A stretch of DNA of 64,000 nucleotides, taken from positions 16,113,231-16,177,230 of the forward strand of contig OX463815.1 in the NCBI GenBank assembly GCA_949825045.1, in the 5' to 3' direction. This document shows positions 1 through 60,090 of this stretch, in pieces. A program made the position numbers and the translations under genes. The notes under the pieces were generated by a model. That model saw nothing but the letters and a program-made list of their open reading frames with translations, did not search any database and was not told the DNA's origin. The first letter of the stretch is position 1, and every line of letters begins with the position of its first letter. The DNA comes from Argyresthia goedartella. Lineage: Eukaryota > Arthropoda > Insecta > Lepidoptera > Argyresthiidae.

Positions 1-42
1 GTAACATCATAGGCAAGAATTACGCTTCTTTAATTACATTAG

Positions 43-378
43 TTACTCATAGATTTCCCAGAAAGCACAATTCTTATCGGAATACTGTAATACTGACACA
101 ATGGTGTACTCCAAGTCATTACAAGCCCAGTCATAACTTGAAGATGCAGAAGAACTGACGGAATCTAAATGTATCAGACGTACTGTTGACCCAATATAAA
201 ATTTATGAATGACCGTCGCGATGAGAAACGTTCCAAAGCATGAAAAACGGTTTCCCCTCCGCGAATAAAGGTTGCACGGAAAATAGCTTGCAGCGGGCTC
301 TCTAACTTTGCACGAACACCGCATATTTTTGTGAAGAAACTGAGGTTTTCTCCCTTTACGACTTCGCCGCGATTGCAT
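43..378 (-). CDS. Orphan 111-codon open frame, unrecognised
   Basis: An uninterrupted ATG-to-stop frame of 111 codons on the minus strand. The protein starts basic (MQSRRSRKGRK), has several cysteines in its first half and a Ser-rich stretch near residue 75. I see no domain, signal peptide or repeat that I recognise. Base composition is more mixed than the AT-rich flanks, which mildly favours coding, but no splice sites, promoter or polyadenylation signal can be tied to it. It could be a chance frame, an exon fragment or a transposon remnant. Confidence 0.2.
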   Translation of the reverse strand: MQSRRSRKGRKPQFLHKNMRCSCKVREPAASYFPCNLYSRRGNRFSCFGTFLIATVIHKFYIGSTVRLIHLDSVSSSASSSYDWACNDLEYTIVSVLQYSDKNCAFWEIYE

Positions 379-944
379 AGTTGCAGCTTCGGTCTAGTGG
401 GAGTAACGTTTCACTTTAGAATAGTTTCAATTTATTTTTATTAGCACCCTTTTATTAGGCTGACTTGTAACTAAATAATAGGTTACAACAAATCTAGGAA
501 TGGAAATTTCACTCTGTTTTAGTTATTGTAACATTACGAAATTTGGAACGTATATGGTAGATACCATCGAACTGGTCTGATGATGGAGCTGAAAGTTGGT
601 AGAGGGATATCTGGGATGCTTACTTGTAAACCAATCTAGTTTGGATGTATTGGATTTGTCTTGATAAGTCCTTTTCATCTATACTGGTGAAGATCTCATC
701 TTCATCACCTGATGATGAAACTGGGTATAGTCGACGGAAGACCAGTAATCGCCACGGAGTTTGGGACCAATTGATTTGTCTTTGCAAGATTTCAAAAGGT
801 TGTTTTAGTTTTGTAGGCTACCAACTATAATTTTATTGGTAATTAAGTGTGTTAGTTTTATTAAACTAGAGTTAACTTATATGTATTCAGAAACAGGGCA
901 TTAAGTCATCTAATTTTGTATAGTTTTTGACACAGAATAGAAGC
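379..944. other. AT-rich stretch without recognised features
   Basis: Unique-looking AT-rich sequence. A short open frame at 645-830 has no recognisable motif. Nothing else is supported. Confidence 0.5.
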
Positions 945-1000
945 CAGATTGAGCCAACCCTTCATGTGCGAGTCCGACTCGCACTTGGCCGTAATTCACT
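945..1000 (+). repeat. 3' terminus of a dispersed lepidopteran repeat with terminal hairpin
   Basis: An 8-bp perfect stem (GTGCGAGT / ACTCGCAC, loop CCG) at 966-984 is followed by the phrase CACTTGGCC. The same terminal phrase, in diverged form, ends repeat copies near 33,290, 41,070 and 60,745. Here only the end is present. A hairpin just inside a fixed terminal phrase is reminiscent of Helitron 3' ends, but that classification is inference. Confidence 0.5.
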
Positions 1001-1403
1001 TACTCCCTATTAATTTGGAAACTATCTCCACCTACAATACAAAGTACAGTAATTAGTCACTGATATATCAAACGTTACATTCCCTATTTGTTTAGGAACT
1101 GAGTCTGATCACACATATACAATACACAGAACAGTAATTAGGCACTAATGTACCAAACGTTACAATAGCTACACAGCGTTGTAACCTAAGTATAGGTTAT
1201 AGAGATATTCTATACAGAAATGGACAAGAACATTTCCTCGTAGTTCCCAAGTTATGCTCAACGAGAGATCATAACTCCGTAACAATTACATAAGTAGAAT
1301 TCGTGACTTGAGTTGCAATTTCATTTGGGTTGTGACTTAGCGAAAAACGAGAATATTAGATAACTTATCTTTCTGTGATGACCTCCATGGTCTAGTTGTT
1401 TCA
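1001..1403. other. AT-rich stretch with a local partial duplication
   Basis: The phrase around 1038-1076 (AATACAAAGTACAGTAATTA, then AAACGTTACA) recurs in altered form at 1120-1168, suggesting a small old tandem duplication. No coding signal was found. Confidence 0.35.
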
Positions 1404-1651
1404 TGCTATGAGCTCCGTGGTCTACGGTTTTATGCTCGCTTCTCACGCAGGAGATGCGGGTTCGCATCCAGTGCTGAACAAGTACTAATGAGATAGGTAA
1501 TTTATCTTAAGTACTCTATAAGAACGTGTAATGGTGATGGAAAATATCGTGAGGAAACCTTCAATTCCCATAGAAGGAGCGATGGGCTCGTGCCCCTTTC
1601 CTGTATAATGGAGTACTGATTAACGTGAAAAAGACGTGAAGCTATGTTATG
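1404..1651 (+). mobile_element. tRNA-headed SINE, family 3 (full-length, diverged)
   Basis: The head reads like a Pol III promoter region (TGCTCGCTTCTCACGCAGG, then the B-box-like GGGTTCGCATCC). The body carries the family's signature GGTGATGGAAAATATCGTGA with a GGAAACCTTCA phrase, and the tail ends near GAAGCTATGTTATG. Related copies lie at 20,865-21,615 (split), 32,175-32,470 and 61,765-61,945. It sits just upstream of the large inverted repeat and, if the acceptor at 1740 is real, inside an intron. Confidence 0.75.
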
Positions 1652-1714
1652 ATATGATCTTTCTGCTCCCTTTATTTATATACTCCCGGTTGAGCTATTT
1701 GGATAACTGACATT

Positions 1715-1740
1715 CTACATATTTTCTCTCTATTTTTTAG
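1715..1740 (+). promoter_or_regulatory. Splice-acceptor-like sequence exactly at the palindrome edge
   Basis: A pyrimidine tract (TTTTCTCTCTATTTTTTAG) ends in AG at 1739-1740, immediately before GACTCCAAGAGTTCTGAGG. That is where similarity to the right arm begins. In the right arm the same GACTCC block is joined without a break to an upstream open frame on the minus strand (8774 to 8571). The coincidence suggests 1741 is the first base of an exon whose intron is absent from the other copy. Confidence 0.5.
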
Positions 1741-2710
1741 GACTCCAAGAGTTCTGAGGAACTTCCATATCTGAGCTGAGCTGAGTGAGAGTTGAGTAAT
1801 TCTCAATGCATTCGTTAATGTGGCGACACAAACGACATTACAGCGATTCCGTCGGCATTGAAAGGTGATAGAGTTGTCTTATTTTGGATATTTTTATATA
1901 CTTTTTACTCGGTTCCTCTTGGCCATAAGGTGCTTGATAGCAACTGTTAGCCAAGGTGCATGTGGGTCCTTCACCCTAACCTCTCATGATCGGAGGGTGT
2001 TTGTCGAACAGACTGAGGATGATGGGTTTAATTTTTAATTTTTTTCGTCAATGGTATCGCTAGAGAGGACGGCGGACCGGCCCCTAGAGGAGGCATCTAA
2101 TTTGAGGGATGTATTGTCCATATCCTTAAATCTGCATTCCATCACATCGACTTTGCATTTTTTAGTAGAAAAATTAGAACATGGTTAAAGAAAGGGGCGT
2201 TCATTTTACCATGAGCAGGAACCGTTTCAAGACCAGTGATTATCATGAGATCAAGAAGAGAAGAAGTAAAATGAGGTTGAAAATGAGTCGAGTCAAGAAA
2301 GACGAAGAAGACGGATCACACACAATCGACTGGCGTTTGTAGGACAATTTTTTAAATCACCTAGGATAAGTTTGTCCAGGGAAGTCAAATCGTTGAGAAG
2401 GTCGAATGAGTCAAAGTAGTCCATCCAAAGAGTGGGGCTGTAGAAGTCACCGAGAAGAACTTTACTGTGTTGAAGACAAATTTCTATAAAAACAATGAAA
2501 TTTCCAAATTAATAATAGAGCCCAAATTGTATGGCAATTGTATTTGAAGGACAACCCGTCAAAAAGGGCAAAAAAATATATATTTTGTCAAAAGTAAAAT
2601 AAAATCTTAATCTTTTAATATTATCACATATAAAGATTAAAATAACGAAATAGATAAACTTTTTGATTTCAGCTACGGCTGCGATAAAGTGCCCATATCT
2701 AGCATATTTA

Positions 2711-2812
2711 TATGTATGTGACGTCGCTGTTTCTAGTTACCACCAAACGGTATCCTATAGTATAGCGCCAGAAGCAATGTACTTTTATGTATATGTATAC
2801 ATACCATTATTT
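2711..2812 (+). mobile_element. SINE family 1, 3' part only (left arm)
   Basis: Matches the SINE-1 tail found intact at 49,480-49,580: GTGACGTCGCTGTTTCT, then a degenerate ACGGTATCCTA and GCCAGAAGCAATGTA, ending in TATGTATATG repeats. The tRNA-like head is missing. It is mirrored in the right arm. Confidence 0.65.
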
Positions 2813-2919
2813 TTTCGTTTCCGCTCGACATGTCTCGGTTTTAGTCGCTGAAATTTGTTTTTAATTTTGACTTACTAAACCCCTTAACCTTAGGCACAGG
2901 GTCCGGCTCAGGTGTAACT

Positions 2920-4385
2920 TCGGCTAGTCCGTCATGGTCTGTAATTTGGTCGTCGAGGTCCAGTGCAGGTCCATATTGTGTAGTACGACACATGCCACAA
3001 TAACTTTTAGGTCTTTTTCTAATTTTAACTGCATCCCGGAGTGGAGGCATGGGAATCTTCTTTTTTATTCAGTTGCAGAAATGGGGTCATTAGGTCCCTG
3101 AGACATGGGTAGCCACTATCTCCTAAAATGATATAGGACCCTAATCTCCCTTCTTCGAACTGGGCAGCAAGCGGGGAGTCGTTCCAAATTGTTGTGTCGT
3201 GCACTGAAATTCAATTCAATACAATCTTTTATTGCCTTAAATTACATATTACATGTGCCAAAATGTAACATAAGATGTTACATTTTGGCATAAGATAAAG
3301 TACAGTGTAATTTTACCTGTAAACGGCATAAAAAATTACTCCTTATAGTAAACCTAGTATACTTATCATCAATACATAGGATCAAAATAAACTACAATTT
3401 CATTAAATTAAGAAAAAAACACAATAAATAAATTAAAATTTCATTCAATTTAAGTTAGTCAACACTCAATAAAAGTTCAATTATAATTTTTCATCATTAT
3501 CACATTTCTCATAAAATTCATTTAAAGTGTAAGGATCTGATCCTGGCCATCGTGCAATTATGCTCAAAATGTTCAGGTTTGTATCAAAAATCGCCTGCAC
3601 ATTGATAGAAAAAAAAACCTTTTCTGTTGCGATAGAGTTCAGCGTTGTTACCTCCTGGAGAAGTAATTTTTACGTGCGTGCAGTCAATCACCAATGACGC
3701 GCGGAAATCCAGCCAAATCGAAAAACCTTGCTGCCATTTTTTTTTCAACCATTTATTAATCCCAATTACAATATATACAACTTATGCTATATAGCCACTA
3801 CACAAACCAGTAGTATAGGTGTAGTGGCGAGTGTTACTTACTTAAAACACAAGTTATCTTAAAAACATAATTACGAAAACAGTCTTAAAAATATCACGCA
3901 CGTAGGTACATATTTTAATTATATTATTTGGAAACAGAGTTTTTGATAAGGAAATCTTTTATCTTATCCTTATACTTATTGTTATCGCTATAAATATATA
4001 AATGTTGTTGGTAGTTAGGAAGTTCGTTGACCATATCCGGCAAAAAGTACATCCACTGAGGGTCGCTGTTGAGCTGTAGGCATTTTCACGTACATTTGCC
4101 TCAACAAAGCTATTGCACTTGTTACTCTGCCAGTGACACGGCAAACTGTAGCTTTGCCCACATTCCAATCACGACTCGTAAGCTGCCGGTAGCATAAAAC
4201 CGCAAGGCTATCAGTAGCTGCAGCATAGCTGAGATGCAGTCCCATCTTTGAATGCTTGCTGGCAACCTGCGCTTGATTTTCATAGGAATGGATCTGACTG
4301 ACTCTTTACTGAATCTGAATCGCTGCGTAGGTGGTATTTGCCGAGGCTCGTCCATCGATGACAGTGATTTATCATCACTCGACAT
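2920..4385 (-). pseudogene. PIF/Harbinger (HARBI1-like) transposase pseudogene, left-arm copy
   Basis: Minus-strand mirror of the right-arm pseudogene, starting at the ATG ending at 4385. Its first 87 codons encode exactly the same peptide as the right-arm copy. The same frameshifts, the same two LINE-tail insertions (about 3736-4065 and 3209-3535) and the same internal deletion before the CVVLHN motif are present. The copy was therefore already dead when the arms were duplicated. The C-terminal 69-codon frame differs from the right arm at only four residues. Confidence 0.88.
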
Positions 4386-4769
4386 CTTATCTAATATAAT
4401 AATCTAATAATATAAAATCGGGATTTTTTCATCAAAAATACTCGTGATTAGAGAATAAGTAGCCGCTTTCGGTTTCTTAAACGTCACTCACACAACTCGG
4501 TGTTGACAGAAGTTTGAGAACTGTCACAGGCTTCCAGAAGCGCAAACTTGGAGTAAAGCACTGGTTAAGCATGAAGTTTGAGTTTTCTCAAGCAATTTCT
4601 TAATTTGTTAGATAAGAAGCCCCAAAATGTCATTGTAAGTATCGGTTGAAATGTTATCAACGTTAAAACCTCAAATGAGAAATCGGCTCATTTAAACTAT
4701 GGATTATGAGATGATATTTGTTGGGTTTTGACACAGAGTAAGTAAGTTAAGCAAATAGTTTAATTTATT

Positions 4770-5612
4770 ACACATTAACCCTTCGAGCCGTTTCTGTAGC
4801 ACTGGTGCCACGGTAGAACTCATACTCGTAAATAACGCGATATTTCAAGTTTTCCATTTTGTAAGCGGAGTGACCCCAGAAAAAAAAACAATTGAGGAAA
4901 AAACAAATGAATTATAATTTTAGAAACACAAATACATGAGTAAATAGCTGTATAAATTTGAATTTGGAATTCCTAACCATACAGGAGATATTTGAGGTCA
5001 AAATGGCCAGTACGGCGAAACGCCAATTTCATATGTAAGGACCTATATTTCGATTATTCTCATTTTTCTAAATCTGAATCCTCGAACTCGAATAATGTTT
5101 CCAATAGTTGCACTGATCTTTTAAATCCGATGTCTTCTATTAGTCTTTTTTGTAATGAATTGAGAGTAGAGAGTTCTTTAAACCTCTTGTGAAAGTCGTA
5201 AATCATCCGCCATATTACACTTCATCGAAATCATCCAGTTTCAACCTATTTTTCATGTTTAGTTTTGGTATTTTCCTTATTGCAATTTCCATCCGTGTCC
5301 GTACTTTTCAAATATTCCCGTTGCCTCACTAATACTCTTTGAAAATTATTATTTTCATAACCATTTCATACATTGGCTTCGCTTTAAAAGTATTCACATC
5401 ACTACATATGTACATTATTTACAATTTCGCAAGATTGTGCATCAAGCTTTTTACCCTGTTTTATATTACTGGCAGATGCAACAGGATTGCTCTTTGTTGC
5501 CTCCATGGCAATTTATTAATAATTTCCAGTCTAAAAAATTACAAAGGCAAATAAATCTTCTTTGTTTAAATTATTTTGACAAATGCCTTAATTTTCAAAG
5601 TCGAAACTCATG
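4770..5612. other. Spacer (loop) of the giant inverted repeat
   Basis: Single-copy 843-bp AT-rich sequence between the arms. On the minus strand (about 5215 down to 5065) a roughly 45-codon run reads FKELSTLNSLQKRLIEDI and onward to a stop, downstream of an ATG-led fragment MADDLRLSQEV in another frame. This might be a decayed N-terminal or accessory exon of the Harbinger element, but I cannot assign it. Confidence 0.5.
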
Positions 5613-6319
5613 AATAAATTAAACTATTTGCTTAACTTTCTTACTCTGTGTCAAAACCCAACAAATATCATCTCATAATCCATAGTTTAAATGAGCCGAT
5701 TTCTCATTTGAGGTTTTAACGTTGATAACATTTCAACCGATACTTACAATGACATTTTGGGGCTTCTTATCTAACAAATTAAGAAATTGCTTGAGAAAAC
5801 TCAAACTTCATGCTTAACCAGTGCTTTACTCCAAGTTTGCGCTTCTGGAAGCCTGTGACAGTTCTCAAACTTCTGTCAACACCGAGTTGTGTGAGTGACG
5901 TTTAAGAAACCGAAAGCGGCTACTTATTCTCTAATCACGAGTATTTTTGATGAAAAAATCCCGATTTTATATTATTAGATTATTATATTAGATAAGATGT
6001 CGAGTGATGATAAATCACTGTCATCGATGGACGAGCCTCGGCAAATACCACCTACGCAGCGATTCAGATTCAGTAAAGAGTCAGTCAGATCCATTCCTAT
6101 GAAAATCAAGCGCAGGTTGCCAGCAAGCATTCAAAGATGGGACTGCATCTCAGCTATGCTGCAGCTACTGATAGCCTTGCGGTTTTATGCTACCGGCAGC
6201 TTACGAGTCGTGATTGGAATGTGGGCAAAGCTACAGTTTGCCGTGTCACTGGCAGAGTAACAAGTGCAATAGCTTTGTTGAGGCAAATGTACGTGAAAAT
6301 GCCTACAGCTCAACAGCGA

Positions 6320-6645
6320 CCCTCAGTGGATGTACTTTTTGCTGGATATGGTCAATGAACTTCCTAACTACCAACAACATTTATATATTTATAGCGATAA
6401 CAATAAGTATAAGGATAAGATAAAAGATTTCCTTATCAAAAACTCTGTGTCAAAATAATATAATTAAAATATGTACCTACGTGCGTGATATTTTTAAGAC
6501 TGTTTTCGTAATTATGTTTTTAAGATAACTTGTGTTTTAAGTAAGTAACACTCGCCACTACACCTAAACTACTGGTTTGTGTAGTGGCTATATAGCATAA
6601 GTTATATATATTGTAATTGGGATTAATAAATGGTTGAAAAAAAAA
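6320..6645 (+). mobile_element. 5'-truncated LINE 3' end inserted in the Harbinger relic
   Basis: A frame reading MVNELPNYQQ ... KIKDFLIKNS then stop resembles the short conserved C-terminal tail of insect non-LTR ORF2 proteins. It is followed by an AT-rich 3' UTR, AATAAA at about 6625-6630 and a short poly-A run (6637-6645). The transposase frame resumes directly after the poly-A. An identical insertion lies in the left arm at about 3736-4065, so it predates the duplication. Confidence 0.6.
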
Positions 6646-6843
6646 TGGCAGCAAGGTTTTTCGATTTGGCTGGATTTCCGCGCGTCATTGGTGATTGACT
6701 GCACGCACGTAAAAATTACTTCTCCAGGAGGTAACAACGCTGAACTCTATCGCAACAGAAAAGGTTTTTTTTCTATCAATGTGCAGGCGATTTTTGATAC
6801 AAACCTGAACATTTTGAGCATAATTGCACGATGGCCAGGATCA

Positions 6844-7176
6844 GATCCTTACACTTTAAATGAATTTTATGAGAAATGTGATAATGATGAAAAATTATAA
6901 TTGAACTTTTATTGAGTGTTGACTAACTTAAATTGAATGAAATTTTAATTTATTTATTGTGTTTTTTTCTTAATTTAATGAAATTGTAGTTTATTTTGAT
7001 CCTATGTATTGATGATAAGTATACTAGGTTTACTATAAGGAGTAATTTTCTATGCCGTTTACAGGTAAAATTACACTGTACTTTATCTTATGCCAAAATG
7101 TAACATCTTATGTTACATTTTGGCACATGTAATTTGTAATTTAAGGCAATAAAAGATTGAATTGAATTGAGTTTCA
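6844..7176 (+). mobile_element. Second LINE-like 3' end splitting the transposase between ARWPGS and VHD
   Basis: The conserved transposase string WPGS|VHDTTIWNDS is broken by 333 bp lacking a GT 5' end, so a canonical intron is unlikely. The insert has a short frame ending in CDNDEKL-stop, an AT-rich UTR, an internal palindrome (GCCAAAATGTAACA...TGTTACATTTTGGC, 7092-7124) and a tail reading AATAAAAGATTGAATTGAAT, typical of LINE tails. TCA flanks both sides (6841-6843 and 7174-7176). The mirror copy is at 3209-3535. Confidence 0.6.
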
Positions 7177-7568
7177 GTGCACGACACAACAATTTGGAAC
7201 GACTCCCCGCTTGCTGCCCAGTTCGAAGAAGGGAGATTAGGGTCCTATATCATTTTAGGAGATAGTGGCTACCCATGTCTCAGGGACCTAATGACCCCAT
7301 TTCTGCGACTGAATAAAAAAGAAGATTCCCATGCCTCTACTCCGGGATGCAGTTAAAATTAGAAAAAGACCTAAAAGTTATTGTGGCATGTGTCGTACTA
7401 CACAATATGGACCTGCACTGGACCTCGACGACCAAATTATGGACCATGACGGACTAGCCGAAGTTACACCTGAGTCGGACCCTGTGCCTAAGGTTAAGGG
7501 GTTTATTAAGTCAAAATTAAAAACAAATTTCAGCGACTAAAACCGAGACATGTCGAGCGGAAACGAAA

Positions 7569-7670
7569 AAATAATGGTATGTATACATATACATAAAAGT
7601 ACATTGCTTCTGGCGCTATACTATAGGATACCGTTTGGTGGTAACTAGAAACAGCGACGTCACATACATA
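7569..7670 (-). mobile_element. SINE family 1, 3' part only (right arm)
   Basis: Inverted counterpart of 2711-2812, with the same truncation and changes, so it was inherited through the arm duplication rather than by independent insertion. Confidence 0.65.
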
Positions 7671-7939
7671 TAAATATGCTAGATATGGGCACTTTATCGC
7701 AGCCGTAGCTGAAATCAAAAAGTTTATCTATTTCGTTAATTTAATCTTTATATGTGATAATATTAAAAGATTAAGATTTTATTTTACTTTTGACAAAATA
7801 TATATTTTTTTGCCCTTTTTGACGGGTTGTCCTTCAAATACAATTGCCATACAATTTGGGCTCTATTATTAATTTGGAAATTTCATTGTTTTTATAGAAA
7901 TTTGTCTTCAACACAGTAAAGTTCTTCTCGGTGACTTCT

Positions 7940-8035
7940 ACAGCCCCACTCTTCGGATGGACTACTTTGACTCATTCGACCTTCTCAACGATTTGACTTC
8001 CCTGGACAAACTTATCCTAGGTGATTTAAAAAATT
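7940..8035 (+). pseudogene. LINE endonuclease relic in the right arm (mirror near 2345-2440)
   Basis: The frame MDYFDSFDLLNDLTSLDKL followed by ILGD resembles the endonuclease-domain region of Jockey-like ORF2 proteins, where an acidic-aromatic stretch precedes an LGDFN motif. The usual phenylalanine after the Asp is changed here (LGDLKN). It has the same orientation as the reverse transcriptase relic at 8.9-10.1 kb and may once have belonged to the same LINE. Confidence 0.4.
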
Positions 8036-8570
8036 GTCCTACAAACGCCAGTCGATTGTGTGTGATCCGTCTTCTTCGTCTTTCTTGACTCGACTCATTT
8101 TCAACCTCATTTTACTTCTTCTCTTCTTGATCTCATGATAATCACTGGTCTTGAAACGGTTCCTGCTCATGGTAAAATGAACGCCCCTTTCTTTAACCAT
8201 GTTCTAATTTTTCTACTAAAAAATGCAAAGTCGATGTGATGGAATGCAGATTTAAGGATATGGACAATACATCCCTCAAATTAGATGCCTCCACTAGGGG
8301 CCGGTCCGCCGTCCTCTCTAGCGATACCATTGACGAAAAAAATTAAAAATTAAACCCATCATCCTCAGTCTGTTCGACAAACACCCTCCGATCATGAGAG
8401 GTTAGGGTGAAGGACCCACATGCACCTTGGCCAGTAACCGAGTAAAAAGTATATAAAAATATCCAAAATAAGACAACTCTATCACCTTTCAATGCCGACG
8501 GAATCGCTGTAATGTCGTTTGTGTCGCCACATTAACGAATGCATTGAGAATTACTCAACTCTCACTCAGC

Positions 8571-8774
8571 TCAGCTCAGATATGGAAGTTCCTCAGAACT
8601 CTTGGAGTCCTTATGTCTCGGTACCTGCCAGGTGGTAATATCGATGTCATTGCTCTCAATAGACACTTTTCTGCACCATGTGTTACGATAGAACCCATCT
8701 TCGTTTAAATAAACCACTCTACGTAGCCTTCTTTTTATAAATGCGGTCACCACCACTCCTTTGACTGCAGACAT
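8571..8774 (-). CDS. 67-codon frame crossing the right palindrome edge; spliced-exon-like
   Basis: Starts at ATG 8774 on the minus strand and ends at TGA 8571. Residues 1-54 lie in unique sequence and the last 13 (DSKSSEELPYLS and neighbours) lie inside the right arm. In the left arm the codons for this C-terminus are preceded by a pyrimidine tract and AG instead. The simplest reading is that the right copy preserves an exon-exon junction (…CATAAG|GACTCC) and the left copy an intron-exon junction. The protein is basic in its first third and I do not recognise it. It could be a processed-gene fragment or a transposon-encoded exon. Confidence 0.4.
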   Translation of the reverse strand: MSAVKGVVVTAFIKRRLRRVVYLNEDGFYRNTWCRKVSIESNDIDITTWQVPRHKDSKSSEELPYLS

Positions 8775-8929
8775 GTTGGAATCGATGCTGTTAGAAAAGC
8801 AGTGCTACCTATACATATCTACCAAAACTGTGGGCGATGACAATATTTCCCCCGAATGGTCAGCAGCGTGATTGACGGAACTGCTTCCTGTGATCACTCA
8901 TATAATATTTTTTTCCCTCTCAGAAAGCT

Positions 8930-10084
8930 TATTTACTACCGTGTAGAAGAAAGCACATATCAACTCTCTGTCCAAAACTTCCAATCCCTCCTCATACAGA
9001 GTTTTGTCATATTTATATTTTCCCTAGCCTCTTCAAAGTTCTAGAATACTTTGCCCATACCCAGTTCTCCTCCTACCTCTCCAGAAACCTTTTTATCAAC
9101 CCATATCAAGCTGGGCTCGGGTCTGGTCATGTCACCGTGACTGCCTTAATTAAGGTCACGGACGATAAACAGGTTGCTATGGACAAGAAACAATAAGCTT
9201 TCTGTGTTAGCACTGATTGACTTCAGAAGCGCCTACAACTGCGTCGATTTTAATATTATCGTTGAGATACTGAAAATCTTAAATGTCTCCTCCCGCTCGG
9301 TTAGCTGGTTACCTAACAGATCTGCAGCAGGGTATAAAGTCCGATCAGACATTAATCGAGTGGTGCGATATTACTTCGGGGGTTCCGCAGGGTTTCTCAA
9401 TATTTATTAACTCCACTTCTGATGTTATCTATTCTTTGTATCTACTCTACGCTGATAATCTTCAGATTTACCTTCATTTTCTCTTTAGTGACGTGACTTC
9501 GGCTATAGATGCTCTTTAAGTTGAACTGATCGTTAACCCCAGTAAGTCCCAGGCTATGATCCTGGGAGCCAGGTACAACCACAACTGCGCATAGTACCTG
9601 TAGTATATAATGGTACTAAAATCGCTTACAGATACAAGGGCTAACACCTGTCTTGTTCGATAGCAACCTTTCGTAGTCAAAGCCTGTCAGTGTTTTTTGC
9701 CACTTGCCAAATCAAACGAAAGTTACCCTTGCTCAATCCCAGCAGAAAGAGAGAAGGCTCCTGCCGTTGAATAATTATGCTGATGTTTCCTGGGGTAGCG
9801 CTAACGAAGAGGAACTGAACAAACTCGAGCGACTTCAAAATCTCGGGACTCAATTTATCTTCAGACCGTGAAAGTTCGACCAAGTCTCACAGTATCGCAA
9901 GGAGTTAAAATGGCTGCCTTTTCGTCTTCGTCGGGACACTCACATCCTCACTTTCCTATGTACTCTACGTCACAATACCTTCGCTTACTAACATGGGTTC
10001 CGAATGAGGAAAATAAATCTGTGGAACGCGACTCCATGCGCCATCAGCGACAGTCCATCTCTCTTTATCTTCATGAATCGCCTA
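8930..10084 (+). pseudogene. Degenerate LINE (Jockey/CR1-like) reverse transcriptase and C-terminal region
   Basis: In order: a QAGLGSGHVTVTALIKV stretch (~9105-9155), the palm region LSVLALIDFRSAYNCVDF (~9195-9255), then after a frameshift TSGVPQGFSI (~9373-9402) and YADNLQIY (~9448-9471), the position of the catalytic YADD. The second Asp has become Asn. The C-terminal region follows: NYADVSWGSANEEELNKLER (~9770-9830) and a RELKWLPFRLRRDTHIL-like stretch near 9900-9950. Several stops and frameshifts make it dead. The C-terminal part is clearly homologous to the better-preserved LINE at 50,457-51,068. A SINE truncates its 3' end. Confidence 0.85.
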
Positions 10085-10375
10085 AAGACTTGCCTGTCAC
10101 ACAGGAGATGCAGGTTCGATTCCTGACCATGTACCAATTAGATAATTAATTTATCTTAAGTACATTCTCGGATGTTCATTGTTTCGGATGAGACGTTAAG
10201 TTAAGTAGGTCCCGGCTACTACCGCTACGTGGTAGTGATCGTAAAAACCCCTCCATCAACCCGCACTGAGCCAGCGTGGTGGAGTATGGCTTATTCTTAC
10301 TCGTATCCGGGTAAATGCCCGTGCCCCTCGGTGGGGACATTAATGGGCTACACATATTTATATATTTTATTTATT
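10085..10375 (+). mobile_element. tRNA-headed SINE, family 2
   Basis: B-box-like GCAGGTTCGATTCCTG at ~10,110, TTTATCTTAAGTAC, a GTTTCGGATGAGACGTTAAG block, the conserved GAGCCAGCGTGGTGGAGTAT block, and the family's 3' signature CCCCTCGGTGGGGACATTAA then GGGCTACA with a (TTTA)-like tail. Other copies: 28,470-28,715 (minus), 38,515-38,860 and 58,245-58,525. It inserted into the LINE relic just upstream. Confidence 0.85.
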
Positions 10376-10479
10376 TATACTGTGTATTTTTATATATGGT
10401 ATTCGTGTACTTCTATATGTAGTAGATTTAGTAAATGCCTTTTCTATAAACTTGTAATGGGAATTTTCATGTTGTAATA

Positions 10480-10545
10480 TATTATTATTTTTCTTATTAG
10501 CCAAGGTCCTTCCACTGCTGGGCAAAGGCCTCTCTTCTCCTCTAC
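10480..10545 (-). mobile_element. RTE-like LINE 3' end
   Basis: Read on the minus strand it gives AGAGGCCTTTGCCCAGCAGT followed by an AT-rich trinucleotide-like tail (AATAATAATA), the usual 3' end of lepidopteran RTE-clade LINEs. Relatives occur at 38,862-39,010, 45,695-45,772 and 63,230-63,300. Confidence 0.65.
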
Positions 10546-11308
10546 TATATATAAATATACAATTTTTTGTTTGGCCGGCACTGTAGGCAAGTAAATAACA
10601 AACAGAGGCATTACAGGTAACAGTAGTAGTATTTACTTTTACTAATACGACCCTTTAGTATAGAGAGGACAGCTTAGAAGATTAGTAGTTAGTTTCAATG
10701 GCCGTGCATCCCGTACAACTTTTATAATTTTACTGCAAAATAGCATTATTTTATTTCAAACTCGGTGAAACTAGTTTAAAGACTTTGCGTATCAAATTGT
10801 GGTAAAACTACTATGAGAATTATCTCTTTTAAAATAAATATGAATACTTACTGTTAACAGTTAGTCCTCAAAATTCCATTCCACATACTTTTAAAAAAAC
10901 ACTTGAACTATAAACAAGCACAGCAACATGAACACAAACTCTGGTTGAGCTGCCCCAAAACATACTTATTTACTGCATAGTGGTTTTGTTCGCAGTTCAA
11001 TTGCTCTCTCACCGTGACCAACACGATCACAAGGGTCAATACAACAAAATCATGCGTTATTGCTGGTTCCGTAGGTCGTTAATCTATTGACCCATGCTGA
11101 ACATAAATAACTTGTATTTCAAATACAAAACACAAAAATAAATACAAAGTATAGGCTAACCCATGGCCTAACTTATATGCGAAAGCTTAGCTGTTGTAGA
11201 AAATTGATGCTATATTTATTCATTGATCAGAATAAACTGTATCGTATATAGGTATTTGCCGCCAAAGCTCTACACGATACCTTCTTTATATGCCTTGGTT
11301 TAACCAAT
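10546..11308. other. AT-rich stretch without recognised features
   Basis: Unique-looking sequence with many short A/T runs. No open frame of note and no repeat that I can match within the window. Confidence 0.5.
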
Positions 11309-20164: not shown

Positions 20165-20365
20165 TAAACAAATAAACATTTAATACAGGCACATACATTG
20201 CTTCTGGCCCCACACTAGGATGCCCCGTGTCGTGGGAACCAGAAACAGCGACGTCCACACATATAAACATCCAAAACCTGGCATTTTTTTTCTTGACCCC
20301 AGCCGGGGATCGAACTCTCGCATGGCAGGCAGAGCCACAACCGCTACGCCACAGAGGTCGTCTAA
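20165..20365 (-). mobile_element. SINE family 1 (near full-length)
   Basis: On the minus strand: ACCTCTGTGGCGTAGCGGTT (A-box-like), CTGCCTGCCATGCGAGAG, the B-box region TTCGATCCCCGGCTGG, TGTGGACGTCGCTGTTTCTG, then CACGACACGGGGCATCCTAG and a TATGTGCCTGTATTAAATG tail. One of eight copies or fragments of this family in the window. Confidence 0.85.
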
Positions 20366-20864: not shown

Positions 20865-20972
20865 GGAAGGGCTCCGTGATCTAGAGGGTTTCACGCTTGC
20901 TTCTCATGCAGGCGGTGCAACTTCGAATCCCGATGGTTACCATGTACCAATGCGATAAGCAATTTATCTTAA
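20865..20972 (+). mobile_element. SINE family 3, head half (split by insertion)
   Basis: CTCCGTGATCTAGAGGG, CTTGCTTCTCATGCAGGCGG, B-box-like TTCGAATCCCGATGG and AATTTATCTTAAG. The body resumes at 21,419. The two halves together make one normal family-3 SINE. Confidence 0.8.
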
Positions 20973-22892: not shown

Positions 22893-22974
22893 ATATAAAC
22901 ATAAACAGCTACTATTTCTGAACCCACACTAGGGTACACTGTGTCGTGGGAACCAGAAACAGCGACATCACTCA
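22893..22974 (-). mobile_element. SINE family 1 fragment (3' half)
   Basis: Minus-strand reading gives GATGTCGCTGTTTCTGGTTC, CACGACACAGTGTACCCTAG and GTGTGGGTTCAG, the SINE-1 3' half. The tRNA-like head is missing. Confidence 0.75.
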
Positions 22975-35395: not shown

Positions 35396-35603
35396 ATAAA
35401 CATAAACAAATACATACAGGCACATACATTGCTTCTGGCCCTACACTGGAATACCCTGTGTCACGGGAACCAGAAACAACAACGTCACACACCTTTTAAC
35501 ATTCCAGACCTGGTTTTTTTTTCTTTACCCCCAGCCGGGAATCGAACCCGGGACCTCTCGCATGGTAGGCAGAGCCACAACCGCTGCACCACAGTGGTCG
35601 TCG
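35396..35603 (-). mobile_element. SINE family 1 (full-length)
   Basis: Minus-strand reading: GACGACCACTGTGGTGCAGC, GCGGTTGTGGCTCTGCCTAC, CATGCGAGAGGTCCCGGGTT, CGATTCCCGGCTGGGGG, GTGTGACGTTGTTGTTTCTG, CCGTGACACAGGGTATTCCA and a TATGTATTTGTTTATG tail. A short GTTAT phrase at both flanks may be the target duplication. Confidence 0.85.
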
Positions 35604-44130: not shown

Positions 44131-44330
44131 GTGCACCGAATAAAAAAGTGACCAGCGTGAGTGGCTCCCAAAAGTGATAAAGACTGTCCAGTGTTCCTTA
44201 TTGTGTGTTATGTATCAAATATTATGAAAGGTTTATAAAATTATGAAATAAAATTATACGAATGAATAGCATTGGTGTATTGAATGGTGCATTGATGTGT
44301 CTTTAGATAAATTAATAAGTAAACATAAAA

Positions 44331-45170
44331 ATGGAGGAAGAAGACGAGGACAGCAAGGACCGGCAGCAGCAAATACTTGCTGCTTTCGGTACGCTGAAAC
44401 AGAAAACATTGAGGAACTCTCTCGAGGAGACCGTTACCGCAGTGACGACCGCGGCCACTACCGTTACCGTCCGGCAGCAGACCTCCTCCGACTCGACAGA
44501 GGCGTGCTCGAGCATCTCGACAGCGCAGTACAGCGATCGCAGCTTCATCTCGAAGACAAGCATGTTCTCGTCGAGCTCGAGCCAGGAGGAGGGCGACGCG
44601 GCAGCCCAGCGGACTGTGACGAGCGGACAGTACCTCGTGGCGGCGAGGGTCGAGACCGCGCGATCCATGGAGAGCCTGCGGCCGCGGGCGGATGCTTCGT
44701 CCCCCGCGCGGCCCGGCTCTTCCTGCACGGGAAGTACCAGCAGCGGCTGCGCGCGCGCACATCGCAGCTCATTCCTTACTGCAAGTGAACGCGACGTGCG
44801 GGAAACGCGTGGTTTACCTGCACGCCGCGCGCTCTCCGGCGAAGATATGGGTGCTTCGGCGGAGAAACGCCGCGGTCTCTTTGCTAGTACTGACCGGCGG
44901 GCATTACAGCAGCTCAGCCTCCCGCCGCCGGAGCGCCGGCTGACCATCCTCAGTCCGCACAGCCCCATGGCGACCACGGAGCTGCTCTGGCCCACGCCGA
45001 GCGGTATCCGCGGCCGCCGGAAGAAGGGCATGGTGCTGCCGAAGCTGATCCTGCCGCGCGCAGACTCCGATGTGTCTGATGTGTTTTTTGAAAGGTGCAT
45101 TTTTTACATTCTATCTTATCTAGTTTCCTGCTACGTAAGTATGAGCTTTATTTTAGCAGCTGCTTATTGA
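44331..45170 (+). CDS. First coding exon of a Ser/Thr-rich protein (unrecognised), open for up to 279 codons
   Basis: ATG in context ATAAAAATGG starts a long GC-rich frame in an otherwise AT-rich window; this is the clearest coding sequence here. Residues ~1-30 are charged and helical (MEEEDEDSKDRQQQILAAF). Residues ~30-95 are Ser/Thr-rich, with SSSSS near residue 77. Residues ~100-165 are Arg/Ser/Ala-rich. Residues ~195-250 have a conserved-looking block, QQLSLPPPERRLTILSPHSP … GRRKKGMVLPKLILPRADSD. Coding probably ends by splicing before the stop. A weak donor AAAG|GTGCAT lies at ~45,094, just after DVFFER, and a strong donor TAC|GTAAGT at 45,134/45,135. The hydrophobic stretch between them (CIFYILSYLVSCY) and everything after the strong donor may be intron. 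It looks intrinsically disordered, like a scaffold or cytoskeletal protein N-terminus, but I cannot name it. Confidence 0.7.
   Translation: MEEEDEDSKDRQQQILAAFGTLKQKTLRNSLEETVTAVTTAATTVTVRQQTSSDSTEACSSISTAQYSDRSFISKTSMFSSSSSQEEGDAAAQRTVTSGQYLVAARVETARSMESLRPRADASSPARPGSSCTGSTSSGCARAHRSSFLTASERDVRETRGLPARRALSGEDMGASAEKRRGLFASTDRRALQQLSLPPPERRLTILSPHSPMATTELLWPTPSGIRGRRKKGMVLPKLILPRADSDVSDVFFERCIFYILSYLVSCYVSMSFILAAAY
45089..45140 (+). promoter_or_regulatory. Alternative splice donors ending the 44.3-kb exon
   Basis: Two donors lie about 40 bp apart: GAAAG|GTGCAT (junction ~45,094) and CTAC|GTAAGT (45,134/45,135, near-consensus). Use of the first would remove a hydrophobic 13-residue segment unlike the rest of the protein. 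Confidence 0.4.
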
Positions 45171-46660: not shown

Positions 46661-46775
46661 TTATGCGCGACAAAAAAATCGTGCTACCTACTGATCTGAA
46701 TACTAGATCAATGGTGCCACTAGAGATACAAGCCGTTGATATTCTGATCACGACCAATGACTTAAAATTTAAAGT

Positions 46776-47626
46776 AATATTAATTTAGAATAATTAGAAT
46801 ATGTACCTATATTGTCTCATAGAGGATCTTCACCAAACCCATCGCAAAACTGTGACCTTTGCCACGTTATTTGGCAGATAGTATATCTATTTATAATATA
46901 CAATAGCGTCACGCCTTTTCGCAACAATTGTGCGCAACTTTAGCTAATATTGATTTAGAATAATTAGAATATGTACCTATATTGTCTGATAGAGGATCTT
47001 CACCAAACCCATCGCAAAACTGTGACCTTTGCCACGTTATTTGGCAGATAGTATATCTATATATAACATACAATAGCGTCATGCCTTTTCGGAACAATTG
47101 TGCGCACCTTTAGCTAATATTGATTTAGAATAATTAGAATATATACCTATATTGTCTGATAGAGGATCTTCACCAAACCCATCGCAAAACTGTGACCTTT
47201 GCCACGTTATTTGGCAGATAGTATATCTATATATAACATACAATAGCGTCACGCCTTTTCGGAACAATTGTGCGCACCTTTAGCTAATATTGATTTAGAA
47301 TAATTAGAATATGTACCTATATTGTCTGATAGAGGATCTTCACCAAACCCATCGCAAAACTGTGACCTTTGCCACGTTATTTGGCAGATAGTATATCTAT
47401 ATATAACATACAATAGCGTCACACCTTTTCGGAAGAATTGTGCGCACCTTTAGCTAATATTGATTTAGAATAATTAGAATATGCACCTATATTGTCTGAT
47501 AGAGGATCTTCACCAAACCCATCGCAAAACTGTGACCTTTGCCACGTTATTTGGCAGATAGTATATCTATATATAACATACAATAGCGTCACGCCTTTTC
47601 GGAACAATTGTGCCCACCTTTAGCTA
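46776..47626 (+). repeat. Five-copy 170-bp tandem (satellite-like) array
   Basis: The phrase GATTTAGAATAATTAGAATA begins at 46,782 (diverged), 46,952, 47,122, 47,292 and 47,462, an exact 170-bp period. Copies are ~97-99% alike by eye. The first is the most diverged and the last ends cleanly at CTTTAGCTA (47,618-47,626). Each unit contains CATCGCAAAACTGTGACC and GTTATTTGGCAGATAG. The 62-codon minus-strand frames that recur are by-products: 170 is not a multiple of three and the frames stop within a unit. Confidence 0.95.
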
Positions 47627-50456: not shown

Positions 50457-51068
50457 TTGGTAATATGCATAATTAAAGGCTATACATACATTGGTGTTAT
50501 CTTTGATAATCAATTGGCCTGGTCAATGCATGTTAATGAGGTCAGCAGGCGAGTTTACGCAACTTTTCATTCCCTCAGGAGACTTCAGAACTTTCTTCCT
50601 CGCCAGACCAAAATAACTCTCGCTCAGTCCCTTCTTCTCCCCCTCATTGATTATGCTGATGTTTGCTGGGTGAGCGCAAATGAAGAACAACTGAACAAAC
50701 TCGAACGACTTCAAAATCTCGGGATTCGGTTCATCTTCGGACTGCGCAAGTATGACCACGTATCTCAGCATCGCAGGGAGCTGAAGTGGCTACCGATTCG
50801 TCTTCGACGGGACTCTCATATCCTGTGTTTCCTTTATAATATTTTGTGGAACCCTCGTTACCCTAACTTCCTACGTGATCGCTTCGAATTTCTTTCTTCA
50901 AGCAGGCCTCTGAGAACTCATATGGCGTCTACGCTCAAAGCTCCAGATCGCTCCACTGCAGCCTACGAGCACGGGTTCAGAATCCGAGCCGTACGACTGT
51001 GGAATGAGCTTCCTTGCACTATCAGGGACAGTCGATCTCTAAATATATTCAAAAACCGGCTAAAGTAG
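50457..51068 (+). pseudogene. LINE ORF2 C-terminal region (best preserved; 203 codons, 5'-truncated)
   Basis: An uninterrupted frame from about 50,457 to TAG 51,066-51,068, with clear homology to the post-catalytic half of Jockey/CR1-like ORF2. It has a Y-IGVIFDNQLAWSMHV motif at residues ~11-25, LLPLIDYADVCWVSANEEQL at ~60-79, NKLERLQNLGIRFIFGLRKY at ~80-99, ELKWLPIRLRRDSHILCFLY at ~108-127, and the terminal AVRLWNELPCTIRDSRSLNI-FKNRLK. The polymerase and endonuclease parts are missing upstream (5' truncation), so it is non-functional despite the open frame. The first codons are arbitrary: the true protein would enter from upstream. It is homologous to the relic at 9.7-10.1 kb. Confidence 0.9.
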
Positions 51069-51594: not shown

Positions 51595-51785
51595 CCTATA
51601 TAAAGGCACATTCGGTCCCCACACTAGCATACCCTGTGTCGTGGAAACCAGAAACAGCGACATCACACACATATAAACATTCAAGACCTGAGATTTCTTT
51701 TCTGTATCCTCAGCCGGGGATCGAACCCGGGACCTCTCGCATGGCAGGCCGAGCCACAACCGCTGAGCCACAGAGGCCGTTAATA
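51595..51785 (-). mobile_element. SINE family 1 (full-length)
   Basis: Minus strand: ACGGCCTCTGTGGCTCAGCG, GTTGTGGCTCGGCCTGCCAT, GCGAGAGGTCCCGGGTTCGA, TCCCCGGCTGAGGATACAG, GTGTGTGATGTCGCTGTTTC and CCACGACACAGGGTATGCTA. The best-preserved head of the family. Confidence 0.9.
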
Positions 51786-59939: not shown

Positions 59940-60090
59940 CATTTTCATGCAGGCACATATATTTCCTCGGGCCACACACTAGGATACCTTTTGTCGCAGG
60001 AACCAGAAACAGCGGCGTCACAAACATAACACCCAAGACCTATTTTTTTTCATTATTCTCAGCCGGGATTCGAACCTCTCGCTTGGTAAG
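59940..60090 (-). mobile_element. SINE family 1 (head truncated)
   Basis: Minus strand: CCAAGCGAGAGGTTCGAATC, CCGGCTGAGAATAATG, GTGACGCCGCTGTTTCTGGT, CGACAAAAGGTATCCTAGTG and TATGTGCCTGCATG. The A-box region upstream of CCAAGCGAG is lost. Confidence 0.8.

Follow-up and report, generated by a model that had tools for sequence, protein, structure and literature searches.

How does a nearly perfect palindrome with arms of about 3 kb come to stand in the DNA of an insect, and does it serve any purpose there? The question is raised by a locus of Argyresthia goedartella (Lepidoptera, Argyresthiidae) lying in a stretch of 64,000 nucleotides, referred to below as the window (GenBank assembly GCA_949825045.1, contig OX463815.1, positions 16,113,231 to 16,177,230 of the forward strand; coordinates in the text are counted from its first letter). 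Between positions 1739 and 8611 of the window, two inverted arms filled with transposon relics face each other around a loop, and a previous description of this DNA, made from the letters only and here called the sequence-only reading, had proposed that the locus might feed a small-RNA pathway. The results presented below indicate that the palindrome is very likely a local inverted duplication with a spacer, presumably generated by a single repair-based copying of transposon debris and followed by passive drift.

Geometry of the palindrome and identity of its arms

When the window was compared with itself by BLASTN, the inverted repeat was recovered as 1739-4769 against 8611-5613 (minus strand), with 98.284% identity over 3,031 columns, 20 mismatches, 3 gap openings and E = 0.0. 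The two arms of about 3 kb around an 843-bp loop reported by the sequence-only reading were thereby reproduced exact to the base, and the arm identity that it had suggested computing became available. The next-largest inverted repeats in the window covered 331 and 259 columns (self-matches of at least 250 nt at E <= 1e-20). The palindrome is composed of the following parts, the right arm being described with reference to a long interspersed nuclear element (LINE) that is analyzed in the next section:

1739 to 4769, minus strand: left arm, 98.28% reverse complement of 5613-8611, read as the derived inverted copy
4770 to 5612, no strand: loop, single-copy in the window except for a 41-nt match at 80%, probably the original upstream neighbour of the right arm
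5613 to 8611, plus strand: right arm, read as the original, continuous with the right flank at 8611 by LINE homology

Aligned base by base, the arms differed by 20 substitutions (11 transitions and 9 transversions, 0.67% per ungapped site) and by gaps of 28 nt and 3 nt near 1915-1949 / 8431-8435 and of 1 nt at 3609, while the longest perfect complementary run between them reached 703 nt. The similarity ended abruptly at all four arm edges. The 41-nt stretch was the sole other match of the 843-bp loop in the window at E <= 0.1. Near the start of the loop (4776 onward) stands TTAACCCTTCGAG, which resembles a piggyBac-type end at TTAA.

The same differences bear on whether the palindrome exists in the genome or was created during assembly, either by read-through of a missed adapter or by a head-to-head joining of two haplotypes. 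It is generally known that hairpin artefacts of long reads and mis-joined haplotypes can produce false palindromes, and a divergence of 0.67% is about the order of insect heterozygosity. A missed adapter, however, would be expected to produce near-identical arms and no 843-bp loop, whereas 20 substitutions, three gaps, a loop of that size and different flanks were observed, in a window that contains no N. For a haplotype join, it would likewise be unexpected that one side breaks off within a LINE and the other continues through it. The misassembly that the sequence-only reading had feared is made unlikely by the divergence of the arms, the loop and the different flanks, although a small residual chance of it is retained. 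The statement in that reading that such repeats are unstable and rarely persist appears too strong for this locus, since an 843-bp spacer and 0.67% divergence would fit an aged, spaced inverted duplication.

A LINE relic tells the original arm from the copy

A dead LINE lies across the outer edge of the right arm, and the following features were delimited:

7810 to 10087, plus strand: dead LINE, starting in the right arm and extending into the right flank (tblastn), with what we take by eye to be its endonuclease side, linker, reverse-transcriptase side and C-terminus
1739 to 2571, minus strand: left-arm portion of the same LINE, cut off at the duplication breakpoint (tblastn with the LINE proteins P0042 and P0063)
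8472 to 8708, plus strand: open LINE linker frame across the outer edge of the right arm, aligned over that edge with 66 of the 68 LINE proteins

A stitched query, of which a better-kept copy at 50460-51065 formed the scored part, was used to search for the LINE family, and 143 proteins matched at E <= 0.001; among the best 120 of these 143, the matches with names came largely from Lepidoptera (Parnassius, Heliothis, Tuta, Mythimna, Plutella, Euphydryas, Bombyx), so that these matches by themselves point to a moth or butterfly as the probable origin of the DNA. The 68 proteins used for the analysis of the edges were those longer than 900 aa within the same best 120, and they were compared with positions 1-11,000 of the window. 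A protein search with a short decayed piece of the LINE gave zero matches at E <= 0.001, and Pfam gave zero matches with the LINE pieces. The better-kept copy, at 50457-51068, is a C-terminal piece from a LINE of this kind with a 203-aa open frame, and had no Pfam match at E <= 0.01.

On the right side, residues 157-767 of P0042 were aligned at 7888-9576 and the C-terminal part at 9650-10087 (tblastn, E 2.8e-66), and the alignment of P0063 began at 7810. In the left arm, P0042 was represented by residues 157-429 at 2493-1732, where the alignment ended, and P0063 by residues 121-418 at 2571-1714. The two outer edges differed sharply when all the selected LINE proteins were considered (tblastn, E <= 1e-3): alignments extending more than 60 nt to both sides were found at 8611 for 66 of the 68 proteins and at 1739 for none of the 68, and none of the 68 had a match wholly to the left of 1739. 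Owing to the decay and the frame changes of the LINE, part of these alignments (P0042, P0063) cross 8611 in a non-homologous frame and show only the collinearity of both sides.

A direct test of the edge was made with the open frame 8472-8708, which contributes about 47 residues from inside the arm and 32 from beyond it. In 66 of the 68 LINE proteins this frame aligned over 8611 with 12 or more residues to either side, the best alignments being those with P0042 (residues 382-454), P0063 (364-438) and P0045 (363-436). When the part outside the arm was aligned by itself, it followed the inside part by no more than 40 residues in 66 of 68; the corresponding counts for the three control frames beyond the left edge were 8, 4 and 3 of 68. 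The LINE thus reads through 8611 and is cut at 1739, which argues that the right arm stands in its original place and that the left arm is an inverted copy cut off inside the LINE; for the outer edge, this assignment is shown by the alignments.

Continuity across 8611 also bears on a different origin, in which the palindrome would be a mobile element, either of the fold-back or Galileo-like type or derived from Harbinger, that inserted at TTA and carries giant terminal inverted repeats. Galileo carries long inverted repeats, and TTA is the size and sequence of a Harbinger target duplication; at this locus TTA is present on both sides (TTTTTTA|GGACTCC ... GGAGTCC|TTATG), and the arms hold a relic of the transposase HARBI1. 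Very long inverted repeats and a flanking short repeat are shared with fold-back transposons such as Galileo (PMC4168063), but the right terminus here lies inside a continuous LINE, so that there is no transposon end at that position. In addition, a 3-nt match is common by chance, no second copy of such an element occurs in the window, and a scan for Harbinger-like end pairs, taken as inverted termini with a target duplication (4760-6000 against 7535-7830), yielded one 12-of-16 match, which did not stand out from 20 shuffles with 0-3 matches of 12. An insertion of the whole palindrome of the Harbinger type at TTA was rejected because of the LINE that runs through the right edge (66 of 68 proteins). 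Since the LINE crosses that edge, the likeness of the TTA...TTA flanks to a Harbinger target duplication is probably a coincidence, and an element with giant terminal repeats is scarcely credible at this locus.

Damage before and after copying

Further content of the arms, together with the differences that have a coding consequence, is as follows:

6105 to 7409, plus strand: broken HARBI1 (PIF/Harbinger) transposase in the right arm, from PF13359 pieces and tblastn with HARBI1-like proteins
2972 to 4235, minus strand: the same broken HARBI1 in the left arm (tblastn), with an extra A at 3609 that shifts the frame (alignment)
1915 to 1949, minus strand: 28 + 3 nt present in the left arm and lost from the right arm near 8431-8435 (alignment and LINE homologues)

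Two of the right-arm HARBI1 pieces matched the Pfam family PF13359 (DDE_Tnp_4), with E values of 7.4e-08 and 1.2e-06. One HARBI1 piece was matched by 37 proteins at E <= 0.001, few of them named; the named ones included a Diabrotica HARBI1 nuclease and, from the moth Mythimna, a protein named DDE Tnp4. The homology to HARBI1 is interrupted from about 6316 to 6640 and from 6843 to 7174 (tblastn), and both gaps are mirrored in the left arm. A small perfect hairpin (16-nt stem, 3-nt loop) is located within the second of these interruptions, at 7091-7125 in the right arm and at its mirror, 3256-3290, in the left arm.

The stops and interruptions of HARBI1 and of the LINE were common to both arms, and the transposon debris was therefore dead before it was copied. 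Later damage, judged from the aligned sequences, is particular to each arm and is counted as acquired separately. The 28 + 3 nt at 1915-1949 encode residues like those of the homologues (APWLT...), and the right arm is broken at that point. Conversely, the extra A at 3609 shifts the HARBI1 frame of the left arm while the right arm remains in frame with the homologues, and it is most simply explained as a gain in the left arm.

Probable origin by a local inverted duplication

With the right arm as the original, the copy is delimited by two breakpoints:

1738 to 1739, no strand: outer breakpoint of the copy (J1), ...TATTTTTT|AGGACTCC..., 0-1 nt shared, junction read by eye
4769 to 4770, no strand: inner breakpoint of the copy (J2), ...AATTTATT|ACACATTA..., 2 nt (TT) shared with the presumed target edge, by eye

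The 3.0-kb segment 5613-8611, containing the broken HARBI1 and the 5' part of the dead LINE, would have been copied once by DNA repair, and the copy would have been placed in reverse orientation at the site that is now 1738|4770, 843 bp to the left of the original. Through fold-back or a template switch, a strand ending at the loop's left border may have turned back and copied the right arm outward over 3 kb, the copied end being then presumably end-joined to the left flank; the two copies would subsequently have drifted apart in a passive way. The loop, as original sequence, would have adjoined the right arm from the beginning. The position of the inner end of the copy beside the loop, with its outer end far away, fits a fold-back geometry. 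The 0-1 nt shared at J1 and the 2 nt shared at J2, as read from the junctions, would be expected for end joining or a template switch, and equally for chance. One event by a repair route appears the likely course.

Duplications of comparable structure have been described in other organisms. Among 17 duplications reported from fly lines, 16 were tandem and one was inverted with microhomology; 11 of the 17 were ascribed to error-prone repair, and the class medians were 4,518 and 3,651 bp (PMC11226609). For human inverted duplications, a single-copy spacer was reported at 21 of 21 sequenced junctions, with lengths of 766-70,466 bp, as well as 2-8 bp of inverted microhomology in 13 junctions (PMC3907307). 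As these two sources present them, the human and fly inverted duplications share with the present locus two inverted copies, a single-copy spacer and little or no homology at the joints; moreover, the spacer found here falls within the human range and the arm length is near the fly block medians (PMC3907307, PMC11226609). Unlike the human cases, which are megabase-scale and terminal (PMC3907307), the palindrome of A. goedartella has arms of 3 kb and is interstitial and older, and its route is one that we infer. The small inverted triplications described in PMC13334657 are similar in having an inverted copy, a spacer and an origin in replication or repair, but in their DUP/INV/DUP arrangement the medians are 148/160/148 bp and the spacer measures 30 bp, whereas only two copies are present here.

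Several observations weigh against the duplication as reconstructed above. The substitutions between the arms are somewhat clustered, with 16 of the 20 falling in 2875-4039 (scan test, P = 0.015), and the longest difference-free run is 703 nt (P = 0.098). The short LINE part outside the right arm is weak by score, with a median of 39 against a shuffled maximum of 40, which was exceeded in 27 of the 68 proteins. Furthermore, a look for repeats across the inner edges, 5612|5613 included, found none in the window, and for this reason the original side of the loop is something that we infer. As regards the second of these points, the case for the original arm is carried, at the level of the aligned sequences, by collinearity and joint alignment, and not by the score of the outside part.

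The clustering of the differences points faintly to gene conversion, under which the arms would seem younger than they are; it was not accepted as proof of such conversion, both the scan test and the difference-free run being too weak for that use. At a butterfly mutation rate near 3e-9 per site and generation, 0.67% would place the age of the arms around a million generations, as an order of magnitude only, and this figure would be too young if the arms convert each other.

A possible hairpin RNA

In agreement with the sequence-only reading, the arms constitute a long, nearly perfect inverted repeat of transposon relics, which would form a duplex of about 3 kb if transcribed across. Arms of about 3 kb that are 98.3% complementary, with unbroken runs of up to 703 nt, would suit a hairpin-RNA (hpRNA) gene, in which an arm-crossing transcript folds and is cut by Dicer-2 into 21-22-nt small interfering RNAs (siRNAs) directed against Harbinger and LINE transcripts; such a role would be compatible with an origin by duplication. 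A precedent with transposon-derived arms is hp-ODox2 of D. simulans, whose arms are BS2/Jockey sequence and which is reported to make Dcr-2-dependent siRNAs (PMC10317233). For the moth T. ni, 20.7-52.4% of the siRNAs are reported to map to transposons, but less than 4.6% of the non-transposon siRNAs to predicted hairpins (PMC5844692). Esi1 and Esi2 are described as hairpin loci of fly culture cells (PMC5392987). According to these accounts, the palindrome resembles Esi1, Esi2 and hp-ODox2 in being a hairpin-capable inverted repeat and, in the case of hp-ODox2, also in having arms of transposon sequence (PMC10317233, PMC5392987). What marks an hpRNA locus is a primary transcript through both arms, ~21-nt small RNAs that depend on Dicer-2 (PMC10317233) and complementary target transcripts, whereas the present locus is known from its sequence and its arms are long-dead transposons.

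The state of the arms speaks against such a gene. Both transposons are broken identically in both arms, and siRNAs derived from them would rarely match a living element; in the window, no 18-mer or 21-mer of the arms recurs elsewhere. The motif AATAAA appears 10 times on the plus strand and 11 times on the minus strand across 1739-8611, and any RNA spanning the full locus would need to get past numerous potential ends. The proposal of a functional small-RNA source is not supported for arms that are old, broken alike and without an 18-mer elsewhere in the window, and we consider it very improbable that the locus is an hpRNA gene. A similarly slim chance is assigned to the version in which the repair accident made a young, transcribed long-hairpin locus whose ~3-kb duplex is cut into siRNAs.

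Other features of the palindrome and the window

One further repeat was recognized inside the arms:

7582 to 7683 (mirror 2698-2799), plus strand: short dispersed repeat within the arm; diverged copies occur at other places in the window

This repeat had matches of 71-82% at 20194-20270, 35403-35508, 51625-51686, 59980-60028 and 22938-22971. The sequence-only reading had listed Harbinger, LINE and short interspersed nuclear element (SINE) relics as arm content; the first two were confirmed, while a SINE inside the arms was not demonstrated. Short dispersed repeats are also present in the flanks, at about 1412-1624 and 10089-10376, with matches at 20871, 21418, 28455, 32196, 38738, 58268 and 61772. 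By eye, these flank repeats look tRNA-SINE-like, and ARAGORN called no tRNA there. In the window as a whole, ARAGORN detected three tRNA genes, none of them within the palindrome, and zero RNA families reached the Rfam gathering score.

Elsewhere in the window, a tandem array at 46775-47626, with a period of about 170 bp and copies 97-98% alike (self-BLAST), has the appearance of a short satellite array. At 44241-45170, both strands carry overlapping open frames, four in all, of 172-283 aa; two of them were tested and had no Pfam match at E <= 0.01. They are possibly a real exon.

Significance

An inverted duplication is an ordinary kind of mutation, nothing found here shows a function, and the locus is presumably without one. 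As it stands, it adds one example to the spaced inverted duplications of transposon-rich insect DNA and matters little. If the palindrome were nevertheless a transcribed hairpin locus, it would represent a living example of the birth of an hpRNA gene from an inverted duplication with a spacer, in which both the breakpoints and the original copy can still be read. Its value lies in being a clean case, in which original and copy can be told apart from the DNA itself, an older transposon being continuous over one edge and interrupted at the other. This approach could be applied genome-wide to learn how frequent such events are and whether any of them become hairpin-RNA genes.

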